Below are positions 1 to 23,955 of a DNA stretch of 64,000 bases, piece by piece; the stretch's first letter is position 1; the number at the start of each line of letters is the position of its first letter. The position numbers and the translations under genes are program-made. The DNA is from Devosia lacusdianchii (GTDB lineage: Bacteria > Pseudomonadota > Alphaproteobacteria > Rhizobiales > Devosiaceae). The notes beneath the pieces are model-generated. The model was not told where the DNA came from, made no database searches, and saw only the letters and a program-made list of their open reading frames with translations. The stretch spans positions 2,914,001-2,978,000 of the forward strand of contig NZ_CP092483.1 in assembly GCF_022429625.1 (NCBI RefSeq). Reading direction: 5' to 3'.

Positions 1-851
1 CCGGAGGCCTGCCACAGCATTTCGGGAATGCCGTGCTCCAGCAGGTTCGACACCTGGGGCAGAAGCCCATGCTGATGGATCTTGATGCCGATCATGCCGC
101 AGTAGTTCATGTACAGTCGGGCCTCGTCGTCATCGCTCCATCGCAAGGGATCGAATGGCACCTCGTCGACGAACCGGCTTCTGAGCTGCGCGTCGACCGA
201 GAGATGGACGCGTGCTTCGGGAATGCCGACGAACATGATCGGGACCATGCCCTCGATCATCATGAACTTCAGGGCATCGGTGACGTCGGTGCCGGTGGTT
301 TCGAACGTCTTCGTGCTTCGTCCCTTGGACTGTCGCATCGCCCCTTGGGAAAGATGCTGGATCTCGTCGAGGATGAGCAGTTCGCAGGGTCGTACTCGGT
401 TGGGATTGTTGATCTCGTCGTTCTCGCCGCGCAGGTAGGAATAGAGCTGCTTGCGAAGAGTGCCGATCTTGGCAGAGGGGCTGACCTCGGCGCCGAGCCT
501 GGTGAGGATATCGGAGTAGAGGCCTTCCCTCGTAGCGCGTTCGTTGAGCGTCACGTGCAGGACCTTAACCTGTCGGCGGGCGATCTCAGCGGCCGGCATC
601 TCGGCGGGGAACAGCCCCTCCGCGATCACCTCGGGCACGACGACCTTCTCGAGGTAGATCTTCACTGCGTGCGACTTGCCCGATCCGCTGAATGCGAACA
701 GCTCGAGCCATCCCTGCGGCTCCCAAGGGCTCAAGCGGACGCCTCGTCGGGCACCCTCGCAGGCCTCGATGATGGCGTCGACCCTCGGGTGGTGGATGCG
801 CATCTGCTTGAAGATCGCGGCGATCTCGGCTCTGGACAGTGGTTGGTTCAT
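1..851 (-). CDS. tnsC: TnsC/TniB-like AAA+ transposition ATPase (partial, C-terminus outside window)
   Basis: This is an AAA+ ATPase that links target choice to the transposase in Tn7-like elements. Translating the minus strand from the ATG at 851 gives a Walker A motif FSGSGKSH at about residues 54-61 and a Walker B LLILDEIQHL at about 157-166. The latter has the DE-x-QH signature usual for TniB/TnsC. The start codon overlaps the stop of the upstream transposase gene as ATGA, so the two are translationally coupled. Only about 283 residues are visible and the frame is open at the window edge. The plus-strand open frames here are shadows. Confidence 0.86.
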   Translation of the reverse strand, partial: MNQPLSRAEIAAIFKQMRIHHPRVDAIIEACEGARRGVRLSPWEPQGWLELFAFSGSGKSHAVKIYLEKVVVPEVIAEGLFPAEMPAAEIARRQVKVLHVTLNERATREGLYSDILTRLGAEVSPSAKIGTLRKQLYSYLRGENDEINNPNRVRPCELLILDEIQHLSQGAMRQSKGRSTKTFETTGTDVTDALKFMMIEGMVPIMFVGIPEARVHLSVDAQLRSRFVDEVPFDPLRWSDDDEARLYMNYCGMIGIKIHQHGLLPQVSNLLEHGIPEMLWQAS

Positions 852-3184
852 CGCTTGATCTCCTGTTCTGCCTGCTTCATCAGTTCGGCCAGGAGGTCGG
901 CTGGGGAACCGAAGCGGCTCTCGGCATCCTTCAGTGGCGCCGTCGGGCTCGGCTGAGCTTCGGCCGGCGCGTTGGTCTCGACCTCTTCTGCCGGCTCCTC
1001 CGCCTTCTTCTTGGCGGCGAGCTTCATCCTTGTCCGCACCGCCTTCTCCGTTGCCTTCTTCCCGCCGCGACGGGGCGACTTGCTGACGTGCCGTTCGCCG
1101 GGGGTGCGATCGGCAGCAGAATCCTGAGGGATGTCGTGCTCGTCGCTCAGATCGGTGAATACGACCTCGTCGCCCGGGACCAGCTGCGGGGTGGGGTCGC
1201 GCATGGGCGCGAGCTGTCGGCGTTCCGCGAACTTCCCCGTGAACGGGGCGTGCTCGATGGCGTCGATGTAGGCTGCACGCGCAGCGGCCTGATCCTCGTA
1301 GGAATGGAACGCCATGTTGCGGTTCTTGGCGAACTTCTGGATCTTGCGCAGGAGGTACCAGGACGTGCCCTTCTGGTATTGCGGATCCCAGTTCGGCAGG
1401 GCGATCGATGTCCGCTTGGCCGGATGCCAGACATAGAGGTTGTCGGCATTGCCCGCCGAAGCGGTGGCCACCACCTTCACCGAACGGCTCGACGTGACGC
1501 CCTTTCGCTGATCGCGTTCCTTGCTGTAGCGGGCGAGCTCGCTCATCAGCTCGGTGGTGATCTTCGGATCGTGGAACCGCTGGCCCTCGAAGGTGATGCC
1601 CTCCGCGGTCAGGAGGCATTCCTTGGTGATGCCCATGACCTTGTCCAGCACCGCGACCTTGTCCGCCTTCGGACGTCCATGGGCCTCAAGGCCGTCCCGC
1701 CACTTCAGTGCTGGAGCCGCATTGATGCCCGAATGAACCTCCATGTGGTACCGGGTCACCACGAACCGCCAGAACAGGTCTTGAAGACGCTGTCGATCGT
1801 GGACCGCATCCACCTCGGGCTCGAGCTCGAGGAGGCTTCTGTCCTTCGGGGTCAAGGGGATACCTCCGGCAAGCCGATGCCAGACGTTCTCGTTCAAGGT
1901 GCCGAAGATGCGTTCGACATAGGCCTTGAACATCGGAATCTTCACCGGCGCCCAGATCACATCGATGTTGGCCGCCTCGCAGCTCGTCTGGAACGAGGTG
2001 CCGACGAACTCCCAGCCGTTGTCGACGATGATGGTCGCAGGCTTCCCATAACCATCCGCGGCTACGTTCTTCTCGCCGTACTCGTCGAGCAGGAACTTCT
2101 TCCTGCGCAGGACCTGTCGCAGGCATTCCATGACGGAATTGAGACTGGGGTGCTCGTAGGTGAAGACCGCGCCCAGGATCATCCTTGAATAGCAGTCGAT
2201 GGCGCAGGTCAGCCACAATCGACCGGCAGCGACCGGCTTGCCGTTCTCGTCGAGCACCGTGGACCAGACGTCGATCAGGGTATGATCGATCATCACCAGT
2301 TCCAGGGGCTCGGACGCGATCATCGGCCGACGACGGCCGCCCATGCGCCGGAAGGCTTCCTTGGCGCCGTACTTCTGCTCCATGTTCCAGATGTTGCGGC
2401 TGACCTTGATCCAGTTGCGGATGGTCTGGTCATGCGGACGCGGGAACGGGTCGGTGTCGGTGATGGGTCGGCCGCGGTTCTCACGGCGGATGACGAGGAT
2501 GCGATAGGCGCGATCGAACAGAGCGATGGCATCGCTGGGGCGTCGGGCGCGCCGCGCCCAGTACCAGGCGACGACAGCGCTCGCGAGGGTCAGGATCTCC
2601 TCGGGCCAGCGCTGCTCGCGGTCATGCTTGCCGCGTCTGTCGTAGAAGGCGGCCAACGGCCGTTCCATGGGCGCGCCGCAGTCATTGAGGGCCCGCAGCA
2701 GCGCACCTGGAGATGGCCTCCAGTCGAGACCGGCTTCCTTGGCGAGCGCATAATGGTCGCTGATGAAACGGCGAACGCCGACTGTGCCCCTGCCGACATT
2801 TCCCAGGTCGTCGTAGTGCCTACAATAAAAACGCAGCGTCCTCGCCTGCATCAGCCGTTGCTGGGCGATCAGCCGACGTTCCCTCTCCTTGAGGGTGATC
2901 TTGGGATCATCGGCGGGAAGCAGGGCCAATGGATCGACCTCGGCCTCGGGTCTAATCCTGCTCTGGGTCCCGATGCGATTGGCAAGGCCATCGCTTCGCA
3001 TCTGGTCGAAGATGGACTTCTCGAGGACGATGGGGGCGTTGATGTACTTCTGGCGGAACACGAATGCAGGTTCGGCGTCGCGCTCGATCATGCATTCGCG
3101 GTACTCGGCGAGGACCGGCGCAGAATGTTCAGGAAGCAGCAGCTCATAGACCTGCCCTTCTTCGACATCGCTATCGTTCACCAT
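848..3184 (-). CDS. tnsB: TnsB-like DDE transposase (Mu/TniA-type integrase)
   Basis: The protein of 778 residues is the strand-transfer transposase of a Tn7-like element. A retroviral-integrase-type core is visible, with a first Asp in LVMIDHTLIDV (about 298), a second in TIIVDNGWEF (about 387) and a Glu in AYVERIFG (about 423). This gives the D-D-35-E spacing. The C-terminal tail is Lys/Arg/Glu/Pro-rich and may contact TnsC. I chose the ATG at 3184, not an upstream start at 3358, because it overlaps the tnsA stop by 7 nt and the upstream extension reads as shadow sequence. The gene is followed by tnsC with a 4-nt overlap. It looks intact. Confidence 0.9.
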   Translation of the reverse strand: MVNDSDVEEGQVYELLLPEHSAPVLAEYRECMIERDAEPAFVFRQKYINAPIVLEKSIFDQMRSDGLANRIGTQSRIRPEAEVDPLALLPADDPKITLKERERRLIAQQRLMQARTLRFYCRHYDDLGNVGRGTVGVRRFISDHYALAKEAGLDWRPSPGALLRALNDCGAPMERPLAAFYDRRGKHDREQRWPEEILTLASAVVAWYWARRARRPSDAIALFDRAYRILVIRRENRGRPITDTDPFPRPHDQTIRNWIKVSRNIWNMEQKYGAKEAFRRMGGRRRPMIASEPLELVMIDHTLIDVWSTVLDENGKPVAAGRLWLTCAIDCYSRMILGAVFTYEHPSLNSVMECLRQVLRRKKFLLDEYGEKNVAADGYGKPATIIVDNGWEFVGTSFQTSCEAANIDVIWAPVKIPMFKAYVERIFGTLNENVWHRLAGGIPLTPKDRSLLELEPEVDAVHDRQRLQDLFWRFVVTRYHMEVHSGINAAPALKWRDGLEAHGRPKADKVAVLDKVMGITKECLLTAEGITFEGQRFHDPKITTELMSELARYSKERDQRKGVTSSRSVKVVATASAGNADNLYVWHPAKRTSIALPNWDPQYQKGTSWYLLRKIQKFAKNRNMAFHSYEDQAAARAAYIDAIEHAPFTGKFAERRQLAPMRDPTPQLVPGDEVVFTDLSDEHDIPQDSAADRTPGERHVSKSPRRGGKKATEKAVRTRMKLAAKKKAEEPAEEVETNAPAEAQPSPTAPLKDAESRFGSPADLLAELMKQAEQEIKR

Positions 3185-4029
3185 GGCAAGCCACCTGGCA
3201 GCTCGAAGATCGGTCTCTTGTCCTGGACGCGGGATACCGTCGTGCTCGGCGTCAGCGGAACGGCGAGATCGATCGCGATCAGTCGACGCACATGCATCGA
3301 GCAGGCCTTGGCGAGCGCCTTGGGTCCATCGCCCAGGGCCTCGAGAACCCGCCTCCAAGGCAGGGTTTGATCATCGCCGAATGCCTCCCTGACCAGCGTC
3401 AGGTCTTGGGCCGAGAGCGTCGCCTTGCGCTTGAGGAAGACCTTCTGCACCAGGGCGTCGGTAACGGGATGGGAGATGTGCTCGCTCTTGACAACGGTGA
3501 GGAAGAACCATCCGGCGGCCCTGTAGGCCTGCTCGGCAAGAGCGAGCTTGTTCAGGTAGCCCTGATCGTGATTGCGCGGGTCCTCGTCGTCCTTCACCTC
3601 GATGATCATGGTGGAGATCGTTCCTTGGCTCTTGGGCTTCCATGCCCTGACGGCGTCGACGAAGGGCACGCCCCTCGTGACGGATGCCGCGAAGGCGGTG
3701 TCGACCGTGACCTGGAGATCCGGGATGAAGTCCATCCTCTTGGCCTCGCCGACGATCGCCATGCGGAGAAGATGAGGCTGGGCGAACATGCTGTGCACCG
3801 GGGTGGCGACCTCGCACAGCTCGTAGAAGGGCTTCTCGGCTCTGATGGATTCCCACTCGATGGCTCGCATGCCGGCCTTGACCATCACTGGCCGGCCGAC
3901 TGGCTTGCGCTGGCGGCCGGTGACGATCTTTCGATAGGGCTGGGAGCCTCGGGTGAAGATCTCAGCGATTGCGCCGCCGTCGACGGTCTGAAATCCCTGC
4001 TTGAAGATGCGCTCGCGATGAGAAGACAA
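3178..4029 (-). CDS. tnsA: TnsA-like endonuclease, first gene of the transposition operon
   Basis: A 283-residue protein matching the TnsA family, which cuts the 5' ends of the transposon so that the element moves by cut-and-paste. The restriction-enzyme-like catalytic set is visible: acidic residues near 58-60, Asp in RMDFIPDL (100 and 104), and the E-x-K of MIIEVKDD (Glu144, Lys146). A C-terminal helical part follows, as in TnsA proteins that contact TnsC. It heads the tnsA-tnsB-tnsC operon and overlaps tnsB. Its presence suggests full excision, not Tn3-like cointegration. No terminal repeat is evident just upstream, where canonical Tn7 has its right end. Confidence 0.85.
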   Translation of the reverse strand: MSSHRERIFKQGFQTVDGGAIAEIFTRGSQPYRKIVTGRQRKPVGRPVMVKAGMRAIEWESIRAEKPFYELCEVATPVHSMFAQPHLLRMAIVGEAKRMDFIPDLQVTVDTAFAASVTRGVPFVDAVRAWKPKSQGTISTMIIEVKDDEDPRNHDQGYLNKLALAEQAYRAAGWFFLTVVKSEHISHPVTDALVQKVFLKRKATLSAQDLTLVREAFGDDQTLPWRRVLEALGDGPKALAKACSMHVRRLIAIDLAVPLTPSTTVSRVQDKRPIFELPGGLPW

Positions 4030-4177: not shown

Positions 4178-4390
4178 TCATGGCTTGAGGTGACCTGGGC
4201 GGATTGGGAAAGGGATCACGTCCTCGATTCCCTCGGGGTGCAGGTCGGCCCGCCGGTTGGCTTCCGCCTGAACGGAGACGGCGATCGCGACGAGGGAGCG
4301 CTGTGCGGCTTCCTCGAATGCGTTCGGTCCCAGCTCGTCATGGACGCGCAGCAGCCTGGTCAGCACGCGGATCAGGAGCTCGTCAGTCAT
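4178..4390 (-). CDS. small hypothetical protein downstream of the FtsH-like gene
   Basis: A 70-residue, mostly helical protein that I do not recognise. Its ATG lies inside the end of the FtsH-like gene: ATG at 4390, upstream stop at 4383-4385, an 8-nt overlap. That strongly suggests translational coupling and a shared function. A longer frame starting at 4426 is possible but would sit within the upstream gene. The next gene on this strand, tnsA, begins about 150 bp further on. Confidence 0.6.
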   Translation of the reverse strand: MTDELLIRVLTRLLRVHDELGPNAFEEAAQRSLVAIAVSVQAEANRRADLHPEGIEDVIPFPIRPGHLKP

Positions 4391-6343
4391 TGCGGTCGCT
4401 CCCGATCTCGGTGCCCATCGTGGCATCGGCCGCAGCGACCACGGCCTTGAAGCGTTCCCCGTCCATCACGCGGGTCTTCATGAGCTCGTCGGCGACGGCT
4501 CGAATGCGGTGTCGGTTCGCCGCCGACAACTCCATCGCCCGGCAATAGAGCCGCTTCAGATGCGCATCCACGGCGCGTGCGATGTCGGCGTTTCGAGCAA
4601 GGACGATGGGGACATCGTCCCTGTCGCCGCGATAGATGAGATCCTCGCCGAAACCCTCCGAGATGTAGAGGGTTGCCACGTATCGAGTGGAAAGCGCCAG
4701 GTCGCTCGTCGCATTGCCGCCGGACCCTGTCCCGGCTTCGCCCAAGATCTGTTCCTCAGCGGCCCTGCCTGCCAGCAGCTGGACGACGAAGTCCTCGACC
4801 GACTGCCTCGTCGGCAGCATGCCGTCGAACTGCAGGAAGGTGCTGCCCCCGTTCCCATTTGCGCATCACCATGTTGAGCGATTCCACCACGCCGATCTCG
4901 AGGACGAGGGCGGCCACTGCATGGGCGGCCTCATGCACCGCGGTTGCATGCAACGCCTTGGCTGTCCTGGGGTCTGCGGGTGCGATCGCATCGATGAGGT
5001 CGGCGATCATCATCGAGCGCCTGGCAGAACGAGCCAGCCGTCGTGCCGCCTTCACCCACTGCACGACCTGGGCGCCGGATCCACCGATGGCCAGCTGGGC
5101 AACATGCGTCAGGTCCTCACCGGCCAGATCCTCACCAAGGTGCTGCCGGAAGATCCCTGCCAGTGCCGCTGCATCGGGAGGATGGATCTCGATCACCCTG
5201 TTCAACCTGCCTGGTCTGATCAGCGCCCTGTCGAGCTTCTCAGGGTGGTTGGTCGCCCCGAGGATGACCAGCCGGTTGGTAGTATCGGCAACGGCGCCGT
5301 CTAGAGTCGTAAGGATATGAGTCACGACGGGCAGCCACCAATCAGCTCCTCTGGGGCTCAGGGTGGCCCTGTTGGGGATGGCGTCGATCTCGTCGAAGAA
5401 CACCACCGCCGGCGCCATGGAGCGTGCCTGCTCGAACAGCTTGTCGATCTCCTTGATCACGCTGTCGAGGAAGCCTGGCGAGTTCGAGAACCACGCGGCG
5501 ACTGACGTCGCGATCAACGGAAGGCCGGCGCTGTGGGCGAGGCTTCGAGCGAACGTTGTCTTCCCGAGCCCCCGGGCTGCTCGCCAGAACGACCGCGGAA
5601 TCGATTTGATCGAAATCCAGCTCGCCCTTCCGCCACGCCTCCAGGTCGTCGATGAGGTTTAAGGCCCATTGCGAAGCCGCGCCATAGCCGTGCAGGTCGC
5701 GGATATGAGGCACGTCGGCGGTCATGGGATCGCTCAGGCTGCGATCGCCCATCGCCTTCCTGAGCCGCTCGACGGCCCTAGTCGCGCTTTCCCTGGGACG
5801 CAGGCAGGCGCAGATCTCGTCGAACGACAGGGAGATCGGCATGTCGTCGGGCAGGTTCCGCGGCAGCTTGCCGGTCATGCGCTTAATGACGGCGGCGACG
5901 ACGCGCCCGGTCGGCGCCGGCAGCTCGATCGTCATGTCGGCGCCCGTCCTCATTGAGGCGGGCAACAGCTTCGCCGGGTCCTGGGAGATCCCGAGCACTC
6001 GGCCGCCGGCGGACAGCGCCGAGATGGTCTGGCCCGATGTGGTGTCGTCTGCCACCTGGGAAGCTCGAAGCGGGACAGTGCGGTAGTGCGCGAAGTCCCA
6101 GTGCCATGGCTTCATCAGCGCGTGGAAGGGTTGGACCCAGTCGGGTCCCGGGACCTTCAGGACAGCGCACAGGCGTGGCTCGTCGTGAAGCCGCTTGATG
6201 CCCTCCATGCCGACGACGCTCTCCAGAAGCGCAAGCGGCAGGATGAATTGCGGTGCCTTGTCCTGGTTCTTGTTGGACAGCCTGCCGGTGATGATCAACG
6301 GGGTCTCGTCCAGCCCATCGAGCCAGTCGGGTTCGTCGGCCAT
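4383..6343 (-). pseudogene. soluble FtsH-like AAA+/M41 zinc metalloprotease, frame broken twice
   Basis: Joining three frames gives one protein of about 652 residues. It has a novel N-terminal half of about 250 residues with no membrane helix, then Walker A (SSPGLGKTT, restored near 5570) and Walker B (VVFFDEIDAIP). An AAA second-region-of-homology Arg motif (RPGRLNR), the zinc site HEAAH and the later Asp ligand in a SDLALSTRY stretch follow. Both breaks behave as one extra base, and both fall at C5 tracts on the plus strand (5569-5573 and 4846-4850). The total length then becomes a multiple of three. The start at 6343 has a purine-rich leader. It may be decayed, mis-sequenced, or expressed by slippage. 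Upstream is a promoter with a LexA-type box. Confidence 0.75.
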
Positions 6344-6708: not shown

Positions 6709-7806
6709 ATGACCGGTTACAACCACTATCCAGATTGCCCATGCGGATGGTGCGTCAACGACGGTCGTACGCGCATCGATCGCGCTCAGCTCAGTGCGTC
6801 CTATCGGGTGCACGAAGCCAAGACCTTTCTGTCCAGGAACGGCGCCAGATCCATCGCCGGATGCTACGTCAATCCGAATGCCAATTGCCCCGTCTGCGGG
6901 GCGGCCGTGTTCTTCTACGCCAACGCCTCAGGCAGCAAGGTCTATTTCGACGACCTTGGTCCCCCTTGGCAGAAGCACCCCTGCACCGACAATCCACGAA
7001 GGACCATCCGCGAGCATCCGGCCTTTGCCGGTGGGCCTGTGCGTCGAGCCGCAGGCATCACCCAGGAACTGGTGGAGGCAGCAAGAACTGCTGGGGCCTT
7101 TCACGCTTCTGCAGGCGTGGGTCGCTGGCATTTGCTCGTCGTGGTGGCCGTGGAACGACGAGGGAAGTCGATCAGGCTGCTGACCGAGCATCTGGCAAGC
7201 GATGATGCGCAGCGAGTTTGGATATCCTGCATATCGGACGAACCCCTCTTCGAGGTCGGCGACTTCCTCAGTCGACAGGGCAACCGCTTCTCGTTCTTGT
7301 ACAAGGAAGCGATGTCGCCGGCCGGATTCATGTCGGGCGGACCTGTGACAGTAGAGGCCGTTGAGAAACAGGCGATGCAGGCTCCCGCGCCGCACATTCC
7401 AAGGCTGAAGCTGGCTCCGGCATCGAGGCTACCCATCAAGCCGGCTCGGACCTACGACATGACCAAGAAGGAAATGGCGCACTTCCACGCCCGGCATAGG
7501 ACCGTTCAGCAGCTCTGCGACGACTTGCTCCCGACCGTGCGCTCCTATGCCAAGGACGGATTTCGCAAGCCACGACAGGTCGCCGAGATGCTGAACCGCG
7601 ATGGGCATCGCACCGTCCTTGGTGCGAGGTGGACACCGAGACTGACTCATTTCCTGCTGGGGCTGATGTTTTTGCCGGAGCAGAACCAAGCCCGTCCCAG
7701 CGGCAGGCCATCCAGCAAACCAGACGCATCAGAACCGTCGTCGATGACGACGGAATCCATTGCAGAGCGGTTGTCGCGTCTCGGCCGGGTGGTGATCTCC
7801 GACTAG
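6709..7806 (+). CDS. zinc-ribbon protein with recombinase-like C-terminal helices, function unknown
   Basis: The protein has 365 residues. The N-terminus has two cysteine clusters: C10-x-C12-x2-C15, and C60-x2-C63 with H90/C92 just after a DDLGPPWQKHPC segment. These are likely zinc sites. The middle holds a hydrophobic beta-rich part. The C-terminal third (about 245-320) resembles the small helical domain after serine-recombinase catalytic cores (AEMLNRDGHRTV, then a Trp-Thr-Pro-Arg stretch), but no catalytic domain is present. The start is well supported by a GGAGG ribosome site. It is divergent from the FtsH-like operon and converges on brxL with a 12-bp gap. It could be a DNA- or nucleic-acid-binding defence accessory; that is inference. 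Confidence 0.75.
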   Translation: MTGYNHYPDCPCGWCVNDGRTRIDRAQLSASYRVHEAKTFLSRNGARSIAGCYVNPNANCPVCGAAVFFYANASGSKVYFDDLGPPWQKHPCTDNPRRTIREHPAFAGGPVRRAAGITQELVEAARTAGAFHASAGVGRWHLLVVVAVERRGKSIRLLTEHLASDDAQRVWISCISDEPLFEVGDFLSRQGNRFSFLYKEAMSPAGFMSGGPVTVEAVEKQAMQAPAPHIPRLKLAPASRLPIKPARTYDMTKKEMAHFHARHRTVQQLCDDLLPTVRSYAKDGFRKPRQVAEMLNRDGHRTVLGARWTPRLTHFLLGLMFLPEQNQARPSGRPSSKPDASEPSSMTTESIAERLSRLGRVVISD

Positions 7807-7818
7807 ACTCGCGGCAGC

Positions 7819-9870
7819 TCAGGAACGGCCGATGCGAAGATAGGTCACCTCGAACCGCTTGATGGCGCGGTGCTCCTGAAGTCGGTTGGCCAACGTGAAA
7901 GCATCGTTCAATGCGAACTGCTGGAAGATGTCGAGACCTCGGTCCAACGATATCTTCCATCCGGTGTCGGTCACGATGTGCCTGGCATGCGCGCTGCCAG
8001 AGGAATCCAGCGACCAGGTGAAATCGACGCCAGAGCCTTGGCATCCGGCGACGATCGCATCCAGATGCTCCCGTTGCTTGTCGGCGCCGAAATCGTCGGC
8101 GACGGTCTCGAGGTGCACCTTCACCTGGTCCTCGGGAGCCTTCCTCCTGACGATGACCTCGATCAGCTCCATCAGGTTCCGGGCCTGGTAGAAAAGCCTG
8201 ATGTAGGGGTCGGTGATCGTCACCAGCCTGGCGCCCTGGAGATAGGGCCCGAAGAGGGTTTCGTAGCTGATCCCCTTGCGGTTCTCACCGAAGACCTCGT
8301 GTCCCTCGGTCGGAACGGGTTGGGGCAGAGGGGCTTGCGCAAACCGCTCTGGGGCCGCGACGGTCTCCTCAGGATCTGCATGGACGACCGAGGCACCGCC
8401 TCGCTTGTGATAGAATTGCGGATACTCCTGTTCTTCGATGGTCGTGACCGCGTGCTTCCGGCCGTCGGAACCGATGAAATGGAAATCGACCTCGGGATAT
8501 GTGCTGTCGATGCGTGCAAGCTGATCCTTGACCCGCTTTCGACTCTCCAGAGCCAGGCGCAGCAGCTCCTCGACCTCTGGTGCGGTCTCGCCGCCGCTAG
8601 GAAACAGGAGCTTGAGCATTCCAGACATCGTTTTGTAGATGGCGTCGCGATCGCGCGTCGAAATCTTCTCGCTCAATTGGAAGTGCGTCTGGAAACGGTT
8701 CGAGAAATCCTCTTGCCGCAGATGGCGGAGGATTTCGGCCAGATAGTCGACGATGAACCCGAAGCCCTTGGTGAACATCTCGGCGCGTATGACGTCGATC
8801 TCCCACCCAGGGACGTAGGCATGGAGGCGGTCGATGAAGGCGGAGTCGTGGAACTGCGGCGGCAACGCCTCGAACAGATCGCTGTTCTTGAGCATGTAGG
8901 GAACGTTGTGGTCGGTGTTGCCTACGAAGGCGAAGCTGGCCTCGGCGCCCATTGGGGTGATGCCGCGCGAGAAGCTCTTGTTGGCCATGTAGTTCTTCAT
9001 GATGTCGACGAGGGCCTTGTTCGCCGACTTGTCCCTGCCGGCGAACTCGTCGAAGGCTACGACGTCCCAATAGCCGACCAGGCCAATGCGCCCGTTCGCG
9101 TTGTTCACGAAGAGCTTCGGCACCGAGACCTCTCCGCCTGAGATCAGTTGCCCGTGCGGGGAGAATTCCGAATAGATGTGCGACTTGCCCGTACCTTTGG
9201 GCCCAAGCTCGATGATGTTGTAATTGCGCTCGACGAAGGGAATGAGACGCATCAGTTGCAGCAGCTTGCTGCGCCGCCCGAAGGCCGCCGGGTCCCAACC
9301 GATGCTTTGCATCAGCAGGTCGATCCACTCGTCGGTGGTGAACTCCGATCGAGCTCCGAGATAGGCGTCGTAATCGACGCGCGCGATCTGGATCGGCTTG
9401 AGGTTCTCGATCACCCATGGGGATTTGCGAGCGTCCTCATCGAATTCGTATTGGACGTCGGTGATGCACCAGACCTGGGTGACAAGCAGCCGGGGGTTGG
9501 CTTTCACCGTGCCGCTGTCGATCGCCACCTTCTTGATGCCGAGATTGTCGAAGACCGCTTCGTAGCTGTCGGTCTTCTCGTTCAGCGATACGCTGACCTG
9601 ATCGATGACCTTGTACCGGCCCTTCTCGCGGATAGTGGACTGGATCAGCCCAGCCTCGTTGCGGTGCACATAGTGCTTCCGCAGGATTTCCTTGACCGTC
9701 TCGATCCCGGTCTGGATGGAGGCCTCGTCATCGGTCGCGCAGTACTGACCCAACAGGTATTCGAGCACATAGGTCGGCACGATGGCGTTGCCCTTCACCG
9801 CCTTGACCAGGTCCTTGCGCACCACGTAGCCGGCGAAATGGGCATTGATCTTGTCGTCAAGGCTGCTCAT
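7819..9870 (-). CDS. brxL: BREX Lon-like AAA+ protein BrxL
   Basis: At 683 residues this is the size of type I BrxL, the AAA+ ring protein that acts as DNA-binding effector in BREX. Walker A is GPKGTGKSH (about 221-229) and Walker B is DVVAFDEFAG (about 270). After a variable linker, the C-terminal 130 residues (from TITDPYIRLFYQ at about 552 to WKISLDRGLDIFQQF) look like an MIT_C-type domain. It is the last gene of the BREX operon, 11 bp after pglZ, with a strong GAGGGGG ribosome site. Confidence 0.9.
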   Translation of the reverse strand: MSSLDDKINAHFAGYVVRKDLVKAVKGNAIVPTYVLEYLLGQYCATDDEASIQTGIETVKEILRKHYVHRNEAGLIQSTIREKGRYKVIDQVSVSLNEKTDSYEAVFDNLGIKKVAIDSGTVKANPRLLVTQVWCITDVQYEFDEDARKSPWVIENLKPIQIARVDYDAYLGARSEFTTDEWIDLLMQSIGWDPAAFGRRSKLLQLMRLIPFVERNYNIIELGPKGTGKSHIYSEFSPHGQLISGGEVSVPKLFVNNANGRIGLVGYWDVVAFDEFAGRDKSANKALVDIMKNYMANKSFSRGITPMGAEASFAFVGNTDHNVPYMLKNSDLFEALPPQFHDSAFIDRLHAYVPGWEIDVIRAEMFTKGFGFIVDYLAEILRHLRQEDFSNRFQTHFQLSEKISTRDRDAIYKTMSGMLKLLFPSGGETAPEVEELLRLALESRKRVKDQLARIDSTYPEVDFHFIGSDGRKHAVTTIEEQEYPQFYHKRGGASVVHADPEETVAAPERFAQAPLPQPVPTEGHEVFGENRKGISYETLFGPYLQGARLVTITDPYIRLFYQARNLMELIEVIVRRKAPEDQVKVHLETVADDFGADKQREHLDAIVAGCQGSGVDFTWSLDSSGSAHARHIVTDTGWKISLDRGLDIFQQFALNDAFTLANRLQEHRAIKRFEVTYLRIGRS

Positions 9871-15921: not shown

Positions 15922-18900
15922 CAGACGATCACCTTCCGACCTTTCCGGATCTCGGTCAGGAACGTCTGCTTGTTGGACTCGAAATAGGCCTCCACGTCCT
16001 GCTCGCTCGCCAGATAGGGCCGTTCCCAGCGAACGAAGAGATCCGTCCCTGTCACGAACGTTTCCTCGATAGGTGGCAAGCCAGGAGGGTCGCCAGCACC
16101 CGGTGGGTTCTGAAGCGCGAGGAGCCGCATGATCTCGGCCATCACGTCCTTCAACACGCGCGTGCGTGCACCAGTCGCACGATCGCGGAGGACGGCGATG
16201 AGATGCACCTCCCCGAGGCCTTCCTTGTGGCTCTCGATATGCGCGAGCACGGACTGCTGACTTTCAGGGGAGAGAGAGCCGAACTCGGACAGTTGCCGGA
16301 CCTTCGAAAGGCACTCGTCGACGGCGGCGACGACGAAGTTCCGCTCTTCGAGAACCTTCAGCTCGACGCTGGCCTTGAGCTCATAGAAGGACGATTTCAG
16401 GCCCTGGATCACGCCGCCCTTATGGCAGTTGGGATCTTCGAGCGCGGCCTTTATGGCCTTCACCTCGGCGAAACCGACGTACTGAAAGTTCGATTCATTC
16501 TTCTCGAGGAAGACACGCACCTCGTCGTAGATCGCCTTCTGGGGGCCATTCATGAAGGCGCGGATCGGATCGAGTACATCCTCCTTGCCGTCGAGAAGAT
16601 CGTCCTCGCTCTTGGGGAGTTCGAGGACGTACCACCCAGGCTGCTTGTCGGCAGCCGCCTGCAGTGTCGCGCGCAGAGGCTCGAGGGAGGAGACAAAGGG
16701 GTATCTGTCCACCTGGGCAGCCAGCCTCCCGATCTCAACAAGAAGTTCCCCAATACCCTTTGCCCACAGGGCACCAAGGGACCGGGCATCGCCAGCATCT
16801 GCCGGACGATTGAACATCTCTCCGTAAAGCTCCTTGAGCTTGCGGATCTGAGCGGCGGTGAACTCCTGCTGAGGCGAGAGCAGGACCAATTGATGCTGCG
16901 ACGTGTTCTGCAGGGCCTTGGCGAGCTCCAGACCTTCCAGCTGCACGCCATTCAGTCGGGTCTCGACCTTTCCACGAGCCGTAATGCTCGCAGCAAGGCA
17001 CAGCGTTGCTGGCGCCGGCCAACCGTAGGAGTTGCCAGAAAAGTTCTCCAACAGCGTCTTGATGCTCACTCGGACGCCAGTGCGATCCTGAGATTGGACG
17101 AAGTTCAGTACTTCCTGCTCCGGCTCGGTCAGCCCTTCGCCTTCACGACCGAACAGGGTGCTCTCGGGCGACGCGGCCTTGACGATGTCGGCTTCCTTGT
17201 AGGTCACGCCCCTCAGCATCGGGAGGTTGACGTATACCTTCTCCACCAGCGTCTGGAACGCTTTCAGAACACGATCCTGAGGATCGCCGGCCAGCTCGAG
17301 CTCATCTCCGCGAACAAAGATCTGAGCATCGGACATCAACCTGCGCAGCCTCGTCTCGACGTCCTTGTAGCGCCGCGCGTTCTGCTCGTCCTTCTCGTCG
17401 ATGATCCTGGTCCTCGACGATTGCTCCGAGCTCTGCTTGGCTTGCCGAACGAATTTCAGCGTCTTGCGATAGAGCGAGAGATCGCGGATCAGGCGATCGT
17501 CGTCCGGCAACAGGACTACGACATCGGCAGATGCCATGCTGCGCATCTTGACCGCGTCGGAAGCCCTGTCGTCGGACAGGGATGTCACGACGTGAACACC
17601 AAGCTCCTGCTCCTTGCCGGAGAGGCTGCCGTCCAAGCGCCGTGAGAACGGATACTCATGCTGCGTGGTGGCGTACTTGATCTTGCGCTGCTTGATCACC
17701 TGGTCGAACACGAGCTCTTCGAGGTCCTTCTGAAGCTCGCTGAGGTCGATCTCGGTGGACTTGATCTCCTGCTCGACATCCTTTTCCTCGTTGGTCAGGA
17801 AGTCGTAGCTGTCGCCATTGTTCTGGATCAGCGTGTTGCGCTCGAGCAGCCCGAGGGCCTCTTCGATGCGCCGACGCTGCGCGATCTGATCGGCCGCCGG
17901 GTCTGTCAGCAGAAGGATTGCGATGTTCCTGACGGTGGGTTTGAAACCCTTCACGTATTTGACCAGGAACAGGGCCTTGAGGATCCTGACGGCAAGCTCG
18001 TCGTCGAGGTTGCGTTCTGCCAGATGAATCGACTGCTGCACGGATGATTTCAGCGCCGTCCTGATGCCCTCGAACATCATGTCGAACGAAGCCATGCCGC
18101 CGACCTCCATCGTCGTCAGGCTTTTCGCAACGGCCTGGAAGACGCCAAGCATGCTGCGCTCGCCCACCGAGCTGTGCTTGCCCTCGAAGGCGTTGTGCTC
18201 GGACAGTTCGCGGATCGCCAGCTGGAAGAGATCGTACTGGTATGGGGGGAACGGATAGCTCGCAACGAAGTGGTCGCGGTCCCTGAAGCTCTTGAGCTTC
18301 AAGGAGCCATCGGTGAAGTCGTAGAGGGTCCTGAGATTGTGCTCCTCTCGATCATACATGTTGCCAAGCATGATCTCGCCGGCTTCGGTCTTTTCGAGCA
18401 GGCGCCGCTGAATGACCTCCGCGACGTCGGCCGAGTTCAACGGCATCTTCGTGGCGAAACGCGCCATGATCTTTGAGAAGTCGTAGCCCTGGTTCTGCGA
18501 TCGATCGCCAATGATCGACGACATCTCCTGCTGCGCAGTGACAATGACCCAAGCCTGGCCCTTGCACCGGGTATTCAGGCTCTCGGCAATCGTTTGCAGG
18601 TTGGTCATGAGCTTCACGTGCTCGGCGATGTATTGACCAACCTCATCGACGAAGAAGTTCAGGCGGTAGTCTGGGCCCTGCGTGTCGATCCAAGCCTTCA
18701 CCGTGTTGGCGAAGTCCTCGATCGAGACACGGGTGTCGGTGCGGTATTGGCTGAGGATGTCGCCAGTGAGCTGTTGGGGTCCCATGACCTCGGCGAAGGC
18801 CTGCGCGATATTGGCCTTCTCCAGAAGCGCCTGCTCACGGCCGCGCTCCCAGGGCCTGCCAGCGATCCTGGCGTAAGCGTCTCTGAAGTCACTCAGCTTT

Positions 18901-19421
18901 CCGCGGCTATCCAGGTCGCGCTCGAACTGGGCGATGTGCGGCTGCTTCCCATAGTACCCGCACATTTCGTCGAAGACCTTCTGGAACACCGACAGCAGCG
19001 CGTCGATGTCCGTCTTAGAGATGACATCGGCTTTCTGGTCGATGTTGAAGAGGATGCTCTTGGACGGGATCGAGACTGCCTTGCGCAGCGCTCCCGCGAG
19101 CATCGGGTTGCCCCGGACCTCATCCTTCTTCTCGAAGATCTGGAAGGCCGTCTCATCGTCAAGCCGGCGGTTCTCAAGCAGCAACGCGAGCATCTTGAGC
19201 AGGTGCGACTTGCCAGAGCCGAAGAAGCCCGAGATCCAGACGCCGTTGGCGGTGGAGTAATTGTTGTAGGCGTCGAGGAACTGCTCGAGGCGCCGGCTTA
19301 TCTCATCAGTGATGACGTACTCGTCCAACTCCACCAGCAAGCTGGCTTCGTCGTCTGCCTTGATGACGCCATCGATCGGTCGATCGATCTGCTTCGAAAA
19401 GATCTGGCTAAGAGCAGTCAT
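15921..19421 (-). CDS. brxC: BREX P-loop ATPase BrxC
   Basis: A 1166-residue BrxC, a large AAA-type ATPase that all BREX type I systems need. The P-loop is GFFGSGKSHLLKML (about residues 64-77) and the Walker B-like motif is NFFVDEVGQYI (about 253-263), followed by a sensor-like WVIVTAQQEM. Long coiled-coil and helical segments fill the middle. It starts 3 nt after the stop of brxB and runs into pglX with a 1-nt overlap. No disruption is visible. Confidence 0.94.
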   Translation of the reverse strand: MTALSQIFSKQIDRPIDGVIKADDEASLLVELDEYVITDEISRRLEQFLDAYNNYSTANGVWISGFFGSGKSHLLKMLALLLENRRLDDETAFQIFEKKDEVRGNPMLAGALRKAVSIPSKSILFNIDQKADVISKTDIDALLSVFQKVFDEMCGYYGKQPHIAQFERDLDSRGKLSDFRDAYARIAGRPWERGREQALLEKANIAQAFAEVMGPQQLTGDILSQYRTDTRVSIEDFANTVKAWIDTQGPDYRLNFFVDEVGQYIAEHVKLMTNLQTIAESLNTRCKGQAWVIVTAQQEMSSIIGDRSQNQGYDFSKIMARFATKMPLNSADVAEVIQRRLLEKTEAGEIMLGNMYDREEHNLRTLYDFTDGSLKLKSFRDRDHFVASYPFPPYQYDLFQLAIRELSEHNAFEGKHSSVGERSMLGVFQAVAKSLTTMEVGGMASFDMMFEGIRTALKSSVQQSIHLAERNLDDELAVRILKALFLVKYVKGFKPTVRNIAILLLTDPAADQIAQRRRIEEALGLLERNTLIQNNGDSYDFLTNEEKDVEQEIKSTEIDLSELQKDLEELVFDQVIKQRKIKYATTQHEYPFSRRLDGSLSGKEQELGVHVVTSLSDDRASDAVKMRSMASADVVVLLPDDDRLIRDLSLYRKTLKFVRQAKQSSEQSSRTRIIDEKDEQNARRYKDVETRLRRLMSDAQIFVRGDELELAGDPQDRVLKAFQTLVEKVYVNLPMLRGVTYKEADIVKAASPESTLFGREGEGLTEPEQEVLNFVQSQDRTGVRVSIKTLLENFSGNSYGWPAPATLCLAASITARGKVETRLNGVQLEGLELAKALQNTSQHQLVLLSPQQEFTAAQIRKLKELYGEMFNRPADAGDARSLGALWAKGIGELLVEIGRLAAQVDRYPFVSSLEPLRATLQAAADKQPGWYVLELPKSEDDLLDGKEDVLDPIRAFMNGPQKAIYDEVRVFLEKNESNFQYVGFAEVKAIKAALEDPNCHKGGVIQGLKSSFYELKASVELKVLEERNFVVAAVDECLSKVRQLSEFGSLSPESQQSVLAHIESHKEGLGEVHLIAVLRDRATGARTRVLKDVMAEIMRLLALQNPPGAGDPPGLPPIEETFVTGTDLFVRWERPYLASEQDVEAYFESNKQTFLTEIRKGRKVIV

Positions 19422-19424: not shown

Positions 19425-20021
19425 TCAGACCTCAAAATTCAGGATGTTGAAAGCGCGATAGTATTTGTCGTCCCGCATGACGCCGAAAAGGACCAGCTCG
19501 GCACCGGTCGCAAGCGCATGCGAGTATTCTCCAGGGAAGAACATGACCGTAGGCTTGTCCTTGGCCGTGCTCTGGAGATTGTTGAGGACGTTGTGGGAGC
19601 GGATGAACGGGTAAACCTCGCCGATCCCAGACAAGAAGATCACGTCGTGCTCGACTGAAGCGATCGCCCTGGCGATCCTGGGAACGAGATGCGTTGCAGG
19701 GTCGAGAACACCCTGCAGCAATTCCAGCAGCTCGTCCTTGGCCAAGGTGGGCTCGAGCTCGATGACCTGATCGAAGATGCCGCGCTCTTGAAGAATTTCG
19801 ACCGACATGTCGAACAGGTTGAGGTCCAGCACGCGCACGCCGGAATTGCCGATCTGCTTCGTCAGATTGCGTCGACCGGCCTCCATCGACAGCCCTTCTT
19901 CGGCTGGATAGGCGCAGATGAAAAAGGGGACCTCGTTCCCCAATCCCTGCTTGGATAGGAACCGTTCGCTCGTCAGCACCTTCACCAGGTGATTGAAGCG
20001 CTCGACTTCACCCATGCTCAT
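19425..20021 (-). CDS. brxB: BREX protein BrxB
   Basis: A 198-residue protein with the size and position of BrxB (DUF1788). Family-like features include the early NHLVKVL segment, a PFFICAYPAEEG segment, and the C-terminal LVLFGVMRDDKYYRAFNIL. BrxB is a small core BREX protein thought to act in the complex with BrxC, PglX and PglZ. It overlaps brxA by 4 nt and precedes brxC by 3 nt. Confidence 0.9.
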   Translation of the reverse strand: MSMGEVERFNHLVKVLTSERFLSKQGLGNEVPFFICAYPAEEGLSMEAGRRNLTKQIGNSGVRVLDLNLFDMSVEILQERGIFDQVIELEPTLAKDELLELLQGVLDPATHLVPRIARAIASVEHDVIFLSGIGEVYPFIRSHNVLNNLQSTAKDKPTVMFFPGEYSHALATGAELVLFGVMRDDKYYRAFNILNFEV

Positions 20022-20614
20022 GTCCTCACTCCCCCGGGAAACACGCCGTGGTCCTGCGGCACCTCTTCCAATAGTCGACGAAGCGCAGGGGAGATCGCGA
20101 GGCGCTGGATCTCTTGCCCCTCGTTGACCAGGCCCGCTTCACGCATCATTTTGAACAGGACCTGTCGCGATCGTTGAATGGTGGACGCAGAACGCGCCGC
20201 CAGCCATTCGTCCCATTCGCCCTTGTCATGGACGAAGCTGTCGTATCGTTCTTTGGGAAGATGCCGCTGACGAGCCTCGTAGCGTTCGACGATCACCTCG
20301 ACCGCGAATTCACGGATCAACCGATACGTGCGGCACACGGCCAGCCAAAGCAACGCGGCTTGGTCGGTCCGCGAACTCGTCTCGGCCAAGAAGTCCATTT
20401 CGGGATCGCTCAACGTGGCAAGCCTGTTGGCAATCTCGCGCCCTATGCGCTGCATGGACTTTTGCTTTGGTGCCGAGAGGGTCGAGGTCTGGCCCAGGTC
20501 GACGATCGCGGCCTGCCAGTTGCGAAGCGATCGATAGGAGAAAGCCATCTGAATGCTCTCATTCAGGAACAGGCCGCCGGTCGTGAACGACATGCTGTAC
20601 GAGGCCATCGTCAT
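20018..20614 (-). CDS. brxA: BREX protein BrxA
   Basis: A 198-residue protein matching BrxA (DUF1819), a helical protein related in fold to antitermination factor NusB. It begins with a short N-terminal extension; FTTGGLFLNESIQMA followed by an Asp-Leu-Gly stretch is typical. It overlaps brxR upstream by 4 nt (ATGA) and brxB downstream by 4 nt. Confidence 0.9.
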   Translation of the reverse strand: MTMASYSMSFTTGGLFLNESIQMAFSYRSLRNWQAAIVDLGQTSTLSAPKQKSMQRIGREIANRLATLSDPEMDFLAETSSRTDQAALLWLAVCRTYRLIREFAVEVIVERYEARQRHLPKERYDSFVHDKGEWDEWLAARSASTIQRSRQVLFKMMREAGLVNEGQEIQRLAISPALRRLLEEVPQDHGVFPGGVRT

Positions 20615-21462
20615 TGCACCGCTCCCGCAACATCGGCGTCATCGACATTCAGGATGACCAATCGATCGGCCGGAGAGGACGGCGTCGAGATTCCAAGCCG
20701 CTTGGCAAGCTGAGGAATAAGAGCGCGCCGCACCTTTATGGAAGTGCTTTCGCCCTTGATCCCGAGGTCGCGAATTAGCGTGTTTCGATCGGCCTCGGTC
20801 AGGTTGGACTGAGGTGCCACTCGCAGCTCGACAATCGTCGACCAATCCTCGTCGGGGCCGTGGGAGGCAAGTGGGGTGTTTGCGCCACGCATCTCGACTA
20901 TGCGTGCCAGTGGAATGGTCGCATAACCGTGGATGGACTGCGAGTACGCACGCACAGACCAATGCGCTCCATCCATCAGCATCGCATGAGGCGCGATGGT
21001 ATCCCAGCAGGGCCGCGGATCGCGCTCCGTCTGCAGAAGGCAGTCGATCGGCTCTTCGGTCAGCACGGCGCCGACGATGGATCGAAGGATGTGACTGCTG
21101 ACGGGCCCTACAGGCGTCGCGATGACTTCAACCTCTGGGATTTGTCCGATCCATAGATCCGTGTCCTGCTGCCGCGCGTCCCGCGTTGCCAGCAGCTGCG
21201 CCAGGTAGTGCTCTGCGGTGCTGGTACCGTATCGAGCGTTGAAGCCATCGCCTCGGACATATGCCCTCAAGCTTAGGTCATATCTGATGTTTTGCGGCTC
21301 AGCCTTTGCATAGGCGACGAGATCGTTGGTCGCTTGGTTCAAGGAGATGCCGAATTTCGTCGCTACATCGGTACGATTGACCCTGCCGTCCCATTGCAGG
21401 CGAAACTCGATGAATGCCAAGCGGCGTTCAATCGTCCATTTCTGTTTCACCGGCATCCCCAC
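20611..21462 (-). CDS. brxR: BREX transcriptional regulator BrxR (winged HTH plus WYL-type domain)
   Basis: A 283-residue regulator at the head of the BREX operon. The N-terminal 60 residues form a winged helix-turn-helix (DGRVNRTDVATKFGISLNQA at about 25-44). The middle is a WYL-type ligand domain, and a C-terminal dimerisation domain ends the protein. This is the layout of BrxR, which represses its own operon in Acinetobacter and Escherichia examples. The likely start is GTG at 21462; an ATG at 21456 is an alternative. Overlapping palindromes just upstream (21481-21504) are its probable operator. Confidence 0.88.
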   Translation of the reverse strand: MGMPVKQKWTIERRLAFIEFRLQWDGRVNRTDVATKFGISLNQATNDLVAYAKAEPQNIRYDLSLRAYVRGDGFNARYGTSTAEHYLAQLLATRDARQQDTDLWIGQIPEVEVIATPVGPVSSHILRSIVGAVLTEEPIDCLLQTERDPRPCWDTIAPHAMLMDGAHWSVRAYSQSIHGYATIPLARIVEMRGANTPLASHGPDEDWSTIVELRVAPQSNLTEADRNTLIRDLGIKGESTSIKVRRALIPQLAKRLGISTPSSPADRLVILNVDDADVAGAVQ

Positions 21463-21465
21463 ACG

Positions 21466-21481
21466 GCTCGCAGAAGCGAGC
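21466..21481 (-). repeat. short hairpin in the brxR leader
   Basis: GCTCGC-AGAA-GCGAGC forms a 6-bp stem with a 4-nt loop directly before the brxR start codon. It could hide the start region in the mRNA; this is only suggested by position. Confidence 0.4.
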
Positions 21482-21504: not shown

Positions 21505-21562
21505 TTGCGGATCCGTTGATCGTGCGCAAGACATATTTCTTGGCTACGGCTTTTTCAGCATC

Positions 21563-22855
21563 TCACGAGCTGGTTTTGGACTCGTCCGGGTACACCGGTG
21601 TGTAGATTTCCGTCGGCGTCCTCCAGCCTCTGAAAAAATCCAACGCATCTGCAGTACCCACGAACTCCCGTGCCAGCCGCAGCCGCTCCATCAATTCGCT
21701 CCGTTCCGGCTCCGACGCCTGTTCGATCGCTGCGGCCAACTCGTCGAGGAAGTGCTCCACCGCCATGCGTTCGCGCCAGCGCTCGATGACCTGGCCCAGC
21801 GCATCTTTGCTCTGCTTTGTCGACTCCTCAATCCGCCGGCGATCCTCCTGCCTTCTCCACCGGTCCTGCTCGGCTTCCCATTCTTTACGGCGGATCTCCG
21901 CCTGGCGGCGCGCTTCCTCGGCCCTTTCGAGGATGATCGGGATGGCGCCTCTGATCTCCCTGGCGATCCTAGGCAGCATCGCCTCGATGGTGCCTTCGCT
22001 CTTCTCCTGCCAGCTCGCCGACCAATCGCCGCCTTCGGTCGTCGAGGCGAATATCCTGATGCGGCCTATGGGCAGCTCCGCGGTCGTGGTGAAGGAGTGC
22101 GGATATCGGTACTTTCGCGGGTTCGCCTGATACTCGGTTTCCCTGATGTAGTGGCCGCCGACGTATCGCAGGGTAACTTCGGCGGACATCTCCACCACCG
22201 TGATGGCGATGGCCGCGTTCTCGAAGAACGCGACCGTGGGCCGCATCGGCGACCATGCCGCGCTTGAGCGGTGAGAATATTCGCGCGCCTTATCGGGCGC
22301 CTCGCGCTCGTCCACCCTGACTGAATGCCATCTTCGATCGCCTGGCGCCACCAGGACTCTCGCCCCCTGCGTATCAAGCTGGTTGTACAAGGTGCTCGCC
22401 ACGCCGAGCACCCGATCGAGCTGGGCTTCTGATGCGCTGATATCGGGCAGAAGCCGCTTGCTCGGTTTCAGGTAGCCGCCGCTCTCCCGCGGCCTCGAGC
22501 GCAGGAATTCCGCACGAGCATTCCGGATCAACTCGTGGACGTCGGTCGACGGAACCCTTTTCCTGGTTGCCGATCTTTGCCGTCGTGGAATCGCAGGCCG
22601 CGTTGGCGGCGATGCCGGCAGCGGCTCACCCTTCTCGTTCCAAGTCAGATGATCGCCAGGCAGAGCATCGGGCAGCCCTTCGGCGGCGGGCGCTTTACCC
22701 ACGGCCAGCTTGGCCCAATATCCCCTTGGCGGCCGCGGCACGTTCAGCAGGGAGCAGACGCGTGCCATATAGCTGCTCGAGACACTAAATTGCTCGCATA
22801 CCTTCGTCATGGGCTGCGACCAGACCAGCTCGTATAGTTCTTCACGGGTCACCAT
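21563..22855 (-). CDS. conserved HTH/coiled-coil hypothetical protein
   Basis: The protein of 430 residues starts MVTREELYELVWSQPMTKV, followed by a helix-turn-helix-like segment and the conserved NVPRPPRGYWAKLAVGK. This N-terminal block recurs in uncharacterised proteins of proteobacterial genomic islands. The middle is a beta-rich domain, and about residues 310-390 form a charged coiled coil rich in Arg, Glu and Gln. I chose the ATG at 22855 because AAAGGAG lies 7 nt upstream; a frame extension to 23074 lacks this. It lies upstream of, and in line with, the BREX operon. It may be regulatory or defence-related, but the function is unknown. Confidence 0.75.
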   Translation of the reverse strand: MVTREELYELVWSQPMTKVCEQFSVSSSYMARVCSLLNVPRPPRGYWAKLAVGKAPAAEGLPDALPGDHLTWNEKGEPLPASPPTRPAIPRRQRSATRKRVPSTDVHELIRNARAEFLRSRPRESGGYLKPSKRLLPDISASEAQLDRVLGVASTLYNQLDTQGARVLVAPGDRRWHSVRVDEREAPDKAREYSHRSSAAWSPMRPTVAFFENAAIAITVVEMSAEVTLRYVGGHYIRETEYQANPRKYRYPHSFTTTAELPIGRIRIFASTTEGGDWSASWQEKSEGTIEAMLPRIAREIRGAIPIILERAEEARRQAEIRRKEWEAEQDRWRRQEDRRRIEESTKQSKDALGQVIERWRERMAVEHFLDELAAAIEQASEPERSELMERLRLAREFVGTADALDFFRGWRTPTEIYTPVYPDESKTSS

Positions 22856-22969
22856 CAGTGCTCCTTTATCGTCGCGGTCTTGTTGGCGGACTGTAGCCGT
22901 TGAGTTCAGCATCTGGATCCAGCACAGTGTCGGTGCAGCTTTTCTTTTCGTCTCCTGGATGAGTGGTGG

Positions 22970-23857
22970 ATGACACACGAGTACTTCACAGAACGGCTGT
23001 CTGGCCCGATCCCAAGAAGTAAGGACATCATCCCTACAAGTGTCTATCGCGCCATCGCGGACGCCGTGGAACAACGGATTGAAGACGGCGCTATGGGCTT
23101 CGGCTTTCCAGACTTCTGTACCGATGGTGCCGGCTGCTGCGGTTGTGACCGCGCGGCATTCAAAAACGGCCTAGAAGCGGAATTGCCCGGCATGCTCTGG
23201 CCGTGGGACATGGACAACCCACCTGCAACCGATCAGCTCATGGATTGCTTGGAGTTCATAGCCCTGAACGTCGGTGAGCCCAACAAGCGAGGGTTTCACA
23301 GCTATATGAACCACCACCATCTGGATCATGATCGCGAAGCCGGGCTAGCCGGGTGGCGAGATCGCCTGAACCAGCTATTCCGACGCAACGGTATCTCTTA
23401 CGTGATGAATGATCAGGGGTTGATGACGCGGCTGGCTCCCGAACTAATCAGAGACGCACTGCAGCGGCCGAGGCTTCCAACAGGCGACACGGAGCTGGAC
23501 AGGCTCATTGAGGACGCAAGGCAGAAGTATCTCGCGCCTAAGCTGGACGTGCGTCGGGAGGCGGTCGAGTGCCTCTGGGACGCTTTCGAGAGGGTAAAGA
23601 CGCTCCTGGATCCCGACAAGCGAGCGGGCGTGAAGGCCCTTCTGGACTTGGCAGCTCGTGCTCCTGGTATGCGGACTGTTCTCGAGACGGACGCCAAAGC
23701 ACTGACTGAAATCGGCAACCAACTCCAGATTCGCCACTATGAGACCAATCAGGAGAAGATTGTCAGCTCAGAAGAGGTGGATTACGTGTTCCATCGCATG
23801 TTCGCCCTGCTGCAACTTCTCGTTCGGAGCCTGCCGATCAATTCTGGATCGACCTGA
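22970..23857 (+). CDS. HEPN-like (AbiJ-type) putative abortive-infection protein
   Basis: A 295-residue protein, divergent from the HTH/coiled-coil gene and last before the transposon end. The N-terminal part has a cysteine cluster (FCTDGAGCCGCDRAAF, about 45-60). The C-terminal half has the pattern WDAFERVKTLLDPDK, then IGNQLQIRHYET, then VDYVFHRMFALLQLLVRS. I associate this with the HEPN domains of AbiJ-like abortive-infection proteins, which are RNA-targeting toxins. The R-H pair in IRHYE could be part of the active site. Family assignment is from memory of motifs, so moderate confidence. Confidence 0.6.
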   Translation: MTHEYFTERLSGPIPRSKDIIPTSVYRAIADAVEQRIEDGAMGFGFPDFCTDGAGCCGCDRAAFKNGLEAELPGMLWPWDMDNPPATDQLMDCLEFIALNVGEPNKRGFHSYMNHHHLDHDREAGLAGWRDRLNQLFRRNGISYVMNDQGLMTRLAPELIRDALQRPRLPTGDTELDRLIEDARQKYLAPKLDVRREAVECLWDAFERVKTLLDPDKRAGVKALLDLAARAPGMRTVLETDAKALTEIGNQLQIRHYETNQEKIVSSEEVDYVFHRMFALLQLLVRSLPINSGST

Positions 23858-23888
23858 GTTCGATAGGTTACAGACATCGTCTCGGCGC

Positions 23889-23955
23889 TGTCGGATAAAA
23901 CGCCGGATCGACTCCCGATTGTTCGAAATCGACTCGGTCTTAATTTTATCCGACA
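23889..23955. repeat. candidate Tn7-like transposon end
   Basis: Outer terminus at 23955: reading inward on the minus strand it begins TGTCGGATAAAA. The same 12 bp recurs inverted at 23889-23900, perfect over 12 bp. Between them, ATCGACTC occurs at 23907-23914 and 23928-23935, exactly 21 bp apart, matching the roughly 22-bp spacing of TnsB sites. The five bases flanking the two 12-mers (GGCGC and ATAAC) differ, so it is not a tiny self-contained insertion. The site lies 15 bp from the tRNA 3' end. Confidence 0.55.

Follow-up and report, generated by a model that had tools for sequence, protein, structure and literature searches.

A Tn7-like transposon with BREX cargo beside a tRNA(CAU) gene in Devosia lacusdianchii, and an FtsH-like gene that accompanies its lineage

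The window analysed here is a stretch of 64,000 nucleotides from Devosia lacusdianchii (contig NZ_CP092483.1, genome positions 2914001-2978000), whose genome is a single contig of 4.36 Mb. The left part of the window belongs to a Tn7-like transposon of 31,163 bp that occupies genome positions 2906793-2937955, or window positions -7207 to 23955. The element is very probably an intact-looking cut-and-paste transposon that homes to a tRNA(CAU) gene and carries predicted defence genes as cargo, among them a type I bacteriophage exclusion (BREX) operon; this reading is based on its ends, the target duplications, the gene content and the repeated use of the site. The original prediction covered window positions 1-23955, a block that makes up about 77% of the element. 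The BREX cargo and the tRNA site that headed that prediction are both real, but BREX in Tn7-like elements and insertion next to tRNAs were already in print: in the part of Benler et al. (2021; PMC8649781) consulted, the table of Tn7-like cargo gives BREX (BrxC) 40 and CBASS (cyclic-oligonucleotide-based antiphage signalling) 216, and sites downstream of tRNAs are mentioned in the discussion. In both respects the window element is a further example. Two of its features are less ordinary: related elements use the same tRNA site in five further genomes of the genus, and an FtsH-like gene lies upstream of tnsA.

The Tn7-like gene set is complete within the one element, on the minus strand and in the right-to-left order tnsA, tnsB, tnsC, tniQ. 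The predicted tnsABC genes are present at 3178-4029 (tnsA, 283 residues), 848-3181 (tnsB, 777 residues) and 1-851 (tnsC, 341 residues, continuing left of the window to L005:19826). The tniQ/tnsD gene (642 residues; L005:17892-19820, minus strand) lies left of the window on the same contig, as does the left end, in agreement with the expectation that both would be found outside the window. All four reading frames are open and the catalytic motifs are present. TnsB has the D-D-E motifs of a transposase, and a two-row profile of it matched eight solved chains, with Tn6677 TnsB best (8.1e-42), ShCAST TnsB also matched and Tn7 TnsB last. TnsC matches Pfam TniB (2.1e-14) and has GSGKS and LDE motifs; the partial TnsC gave no match to solved structures. 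A TniQ profile found solved TniQ proteins, the best at 5.6e-5, and TnsA was assigned from a PD...EVK motif, its position and its similarity within the family.

Both ends of the element could be placed. The right end (23889-23955, minus strand) reads TGTCGGATAAAATTAAG inwards from 23955 and includes two GAGTCG sites; the terminus TGTCGGATAAAA stops at 23955 and is followed by ATAAC (23956-23960), ten more bases and then the 3' end of the tRNA(CAU) gene (23971-24046, minus strand). A TGT-type terminus 15 bp from this tRNA had been predicted correctly. At the left terminus, genome position 2906793 (L005:12793), the sequence reads ATAAC followed by TGTCGGCTC. The ATAAC before the left end (L005:12788-12792) is identical to that after the right end, which is the 5-bp target duplication that had been anticipated. 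The opposite end was expected to repeat the motif of the right one, and this was borne out in part: the two ends have TGTCGG and inner GAGTCG repeats in common, but the 12-mer TGTCGGATAAAA has no further copy near by with at most one mismatch, so the left end was missed by that search and was located by looser matching on the tniQ side. The GAGTCG repeats, putative TnsB-type sites, are more numerous in the left end. A 40-kb stretch contains 24 TGTCGG and 18 CCGACA, which form 143 inward-facing pairs more than 3 kb apart. Only the proposed end pair among these 143 has identical 5-bp flanks, where about 0.14 such pairs would be expected by chance. The right end also contains a second, inverted copy of TGTCGGATAAAA at 23889-23900, which points outwards about 66 bp inside the terminus, and an end in Devosia marina (G222:C10:1565170-1565235) likewise has an inverted, outward-pointing second copy of its terminus about 66 bp inside.

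The tRNA gene was called tRNA-Met by ARAGORN; we take it to be tRNA-Ile2 from its C4-G69 and C5-G68 acceptor pairs. At 1e-25, a TniQ profile matched 12 of the 75 genomes searched in the genus, which includes D. marina (G222), and 7 of 397 in the order. In six of the 12 an element ends at tRNA(CAU), so that the predicted tRNA-adjacent attachment site recurs in five genomes beyond the window genome. The spacing to the tRNA is 15 bp in the window genome, 12 bp in G412, and 14 bp in G397, G400, G421 and G837, and the right end is nearest the tRNA in all six. With boundaries in the relatives set by eye from the duplications, the flanking 5 bp are exact copies in four of them (AATTG in G397, TGAGA in G400, ACGCC in G412, CTGGG in G421) and agree at four of five bases in G837 (ACGCC/ACGTC). 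The transposition genes of G397 and G400 are near-identical, as are those of G837 and one of two elements in G412 (G412a; 98% TnsB), and therefore the six occupied sites do not represent six independent lineages. The suggested comparison with a strain lacking the island could be made with G432 (L035), in which the left-flank gene and the IclR gene form one uninterrupted run with a tRNA(CAU) gene that is 88% alike over 69 bases. In the window genome, 1.4 kb with a DUF2806 gene separates the left-flank gene from the left end.

Several observations weigh against homing to tRNA(CAU) by a standard Tn7-like element. The closest TniQ relatives, in D. marina (48% identical) and G399 (37%), are not at this tRNA, so that likeness in TniQ is not by itself a guide to the site. 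An element in Bradyrhizobium niftali (L049:14473-14563, its other end beyond the contig) lies 15 bp from tRNA(CAU) in the opposite orientation, its tniQ end facing the tRNA. The two ends in G421 are on two contigs, and the termini of several relatives start with TGA or TAA rather than TGT. At the protein level, TniQ scores below the Pfam cut-off (21.8 vs 27), and TnsA has no Pfam match and one weak PDB match (0.028). Among the six TniQ-positive genomes of the genus not placed at the site, tniQ is on another contig or far from the tRNA in G222, G399, G404, G406 and G441, and the tRNA search gave no match in G436.

G412 has two family elements (C1:217199-254985 and C6 at about 979679-988249). 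One of them lies at tRNA(CAU); the second, elsewhere in the genome, has its tniQ interrupted by a stop codon. In D. marina two elements seem to abut, 4 bp separating a right-type end from another TGTCGG end (G222:C10, about 1565235-1565240), and the tnsB of the element there is split by about 1.3 kb (about 1575174-1576450 on the same contig) that by eye resembles an IS3-type insertion. In L219 (G035:C1:7912001-7930000) a tRNA(CAU) gene lies about 5.7 kb from a partial match to tniQ, with no other tns genes; this is perhaps a remnant.

If the element transposes as its genes suggest, TniQ/TnsD would bind the tRNA gene in its 3' part and recruit TnsC, while TnsA and TnsB, acting on GAGTCG-type repeats at both ends, would excise the element. 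Insertion would then occur 12-15 bp past the tRNA with the right end towards it; it would duplicate 5 bp and leave the tRNA intact.

The FtsH-like gene (4383-6343, minus strand) regularly accompanies transposons of this lineage, and its copy in the window is broken. The gene is intact in relatives; in the window it is spread over three frames (fragments 5342-6343, 4756-5517 and 4383-4820) by two frameshifts, both placed by eye at runs of five G. Random sequencing errors are a disfavoured explanation for these: the element's coding sequence has 22 runs of at least five G or C, 20 are undisturbed, and both disrupted runs fall in this one gene, a chance of 1 in 231 if two of the 22 were hit at random. 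The product is predicted to be a soluble AAA+/M41 protease. The AAA and M41 domains with HEXXH are common to this family and to FtsH proteases, but the N-terminal membrane anchor of FtsH appears to be lacking: in nine rows measured, the first 240 residues contain no strongly hydrophobic segment, the largest 19-residue hydropathy mean being 0.82-1.58. A four-row profile matches solved FtsH over AAA and M41 (positions 245-632), VCP-like ATPases score higher on the AAA part, and the FtsH equivalog score of 136.6 is far from the cut-off of 600. HEXXH is kept in nine intact relative rows, and HEXXH with the P-loop in five more.

Of the 17 elements in which tnsA is recognised and is preceded by 5 kb or more of sequence, 15 have the FtsH-like gene upstream of tnsA on the same strand: the window element, G222, G399, G397, G400, G412a, G412b, G837, L052, G327, L212, L214, L215, L216 and L218. 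The other two are L049 and L213. Outside this set were L217, which has tnsB, tnsC and tniQ with no recognised tnsA and has no FtsH-like gene; L051/L220 (one record), L053, L211 and G421, with too little upstream sequence; and L219, with no tns genes. In a genome-wide TnsB scan, a full-length FtsH-like match was found at four of 80 loci and a weak partial one at another; by hand count, 64 of these loci have 5 kb or more of sequence ahead of the TnsB match. The link is therefore particular to the lineage of the window element. Between the FtsH-like gene and tnsA lies a 70-residue open reading frame (4178-4390, minus strand), with a similar one in the corresponding position in L047 and L048. Such a small frame follows the FtsH-like gene in some tns elements (L047:6866-7102; L048:8674-8883), and a similar-looking one follows it in L155 (9880-10245), which has no tns genes.

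There is roughly an even chance that the FtsH-like gene is a stable passenger upstream of tnsA, for example a gene for defence or stress, and takes no part in transposition. Similar genes occur without tns genes nearby, and confinement of the gene to tns elements is rejected. At a cut-off of 1e-70 the FtsH-like profile matched 12 of the 385 genomes searched in the class, and at 1e-20 the protein matched 331 plasmid records; none of 18 regions fetched, some of them short (six of the 331 plasmid records and 12 places in 11 genomes), had a tns match at 1e-4. The window copy is frameshifted while the tns genes are open, the B. niftali element (L049) lacks the gene, L213 has a diverged opposite-strand copy without HEXXH or Walker motifs, and the gene stands about 0.1-1.7 kb apart from tnsA. 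Against a mere passenger, its place and strand are the same in the 15 elements although other cargo mostly differs, and its protein distances track those of TnsB. Identities of the FtsH-like protein and TnsB correlate with r of 0.89 (2 of 5040 permutations), compared with 0.96 for TnsC and TnsB (4 of 5040); without the near-duplicate G837 the FtsH-like value is 0.53 (1 of 720). Trees gave two changes with five tns rows of 21 (as low in 2 of 500 shuffles), two with eight of 17 (1 of 500) and four with 14 of 25 (2 of 500); in this largest tree two non-tns rows, L152 and L155, fall among the tns rows, which again suits a passenger, and L213 falls outside. The trees and correlations support long co-inheritance of the gene with the tns genes, not exclusivity.

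A role for the protease in transposition, comparable to that of ClpX, is put forward as a hypothesis. ClpX is an AAA+ unfoldase proposed to dismantle the post-transposition complex in Mu and in CRISPR-associated transposons (CASTs), according to the part of PMC12326709 consulted. It is possible, though rather doubtful, that the lineage's AAA+/M41 protease is a core gene that would dismantle or degrade the TnsB/TnsC/TniQ complex after insertion, as host ClpX is proposed to do for Mu and CASTs; the window copy would then have lost this function and should depend on host unfoldases. ClpX is a host protein, whereas the FtsH-like candidate is encoded by the element and has its own predicted protease domain. 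No element-encoded protease is described in the Tn7-like literature covered, a scope without supplements and most subscription papers that makes this weak evidence of absence. FtsH appeared there in a legend alone, and "AAA+ protease" does not occur in the matches listed.

Two other origins of the island are very improbable. The 3' ends of tRNA genes are common integrase sites, and the island could have entered through a tyrosine integrase with the tns genes as a secondary insertion; its junctions, however, have TGT-type ends, GAGTCG repeats and duplications of 5 bp, stand 12-15 bp off the tRNA and show no duplicated 3' segment of the tRNA, and no integrase match was found among the element genes searched. 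The other is an RNA-guided element reaching the tRNA by guide RNA: tRNA genes are used by many type V-K CASTs, according to the part of PMC11406308 consulted, but none of 17 element-region proteins matched a Cas model in PADLOC, a search of three parts (18.5 of the 31.2 kb, the BREX part not among them) showed no CRISPR-type array, and a TniQ of 642 residues is in the size range that Faure et al., in the text consulted, tie to direct target choice (more than 400 residues, dual loci).

As a Tn7-like transposon, the element resembles those of Benler et al. (PMC8649781) in having tnsABC with tniQ/tnsD, ends with putative TnsB sites and predicted defence cargo; the parts of that study consulted name no particular tRNA for the lineage of the window element, and protease, peptidase and unfoldase do not occur as words in its main text. 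Insertion downstream of a tRNA gene directed by TnsD/TniQ is also reported for I-B2 and I-D CASTs, and CyCAST inserts 30-33 nt downstream of a tRNA gene, in the portions of PMC10293859 and PMC11406308 consulted. The window element differs from these in that no CRISPR-Cas was found, in its separate tnsA and tnsB where theirs are fused as TnsAB, and in its use of tRNA(CAU) at 12-15 bp. The available text of Faure et al. (2023), a 2024 review and the evolved-CAST paper covers tRNA-homing TnsD, orientation control and ClpX. Literature searches for Tn7-like with tRNA-Ile gave no match, and those for Devosia with Tn7 gave unrelated titles only.

The BREX genes are cargo because the whole island lies between the transposon ends. 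The predicted complete type I operon was recovered by PADLOC and Pfam in the same block, on the minus strand from 20614 down to 7819: brxA (20018-20614), brxB (19425-20021), brxC (15921-19421), pglX (12376-15921), pglZ (9882-12383) and brxL (7819-9870). Its six genes are the ordinary content of type I BREX, from which a defence function is predicted. The other cargo right of tnsA, besides the FtsH-like gene, comprises a 365-residue open reading frame with no family found (6709-7806, plus strand), a 283-residue one in the position of a BREX regulator with weak helix-turn-helix matches alone (0.007; 20611-21462, minus strand), a 429-residue one with no family found (21563-22852, minus strand), which has a 57% identical relative in the G412b island, and the candidate defence gene PDC-S32 (22970-23857, plus strand; PADLOC 7.1e-46). 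Left of tniQ are XRE and ImmA/IrrE-like genes, a Pycsar-like cluster (pyrimidine cyclase system for antiphage resistance) and a 118-residue frame without matches. The cluster encodes a PycC-type cyclase (PADLOC 2.6e-185), an E2 protein (3.7e-76) and a second PycC-type match, a protein with cyclic-nucleotide-binding and cyclase domains (1.4e-118, also in Pfam); known Pycsar effectors were not identified in it by the PADLOC and Pfam scan. The original prediction mentioned neither this cluster nor the FtsH-like gene, the latter being the more unusual part.

Cargo in related elements varies. The element in G399 (L048) also has all six BREX genes, there on the strand opposite to tns and with a BrxC 31% identical. 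A 48-kb element in D. sediminis (G450:C8:516349-564324) has open reading frames that by eye resemble a metal transport ATPase and cation efflux genes; its FtsH-like gene is intact, as is that of the G399 element. In D. marina, G222:C10:1588758-1590635 is a deletion remnant that fuses the start of an FtsH-like gene to the end of a tniQ; the XRE and ImmA genes that come after it share 94% and 93% identity with their counterparts in the window element.

Taken together, a natural Tn7-like lineage repeatedly brings changing cargo to one tRNA gene, with predicted phage defence here and in G399, and several genomes show its ends, duplications and orientation. Should the FtsH-like protease belong to the machinery of transposition, the elements would encode their own counterpart of the ClpX step, which limits the activity of CASTs. 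The intact copies in relatives and the broken copy in the window make such a role of the protease directly testable.

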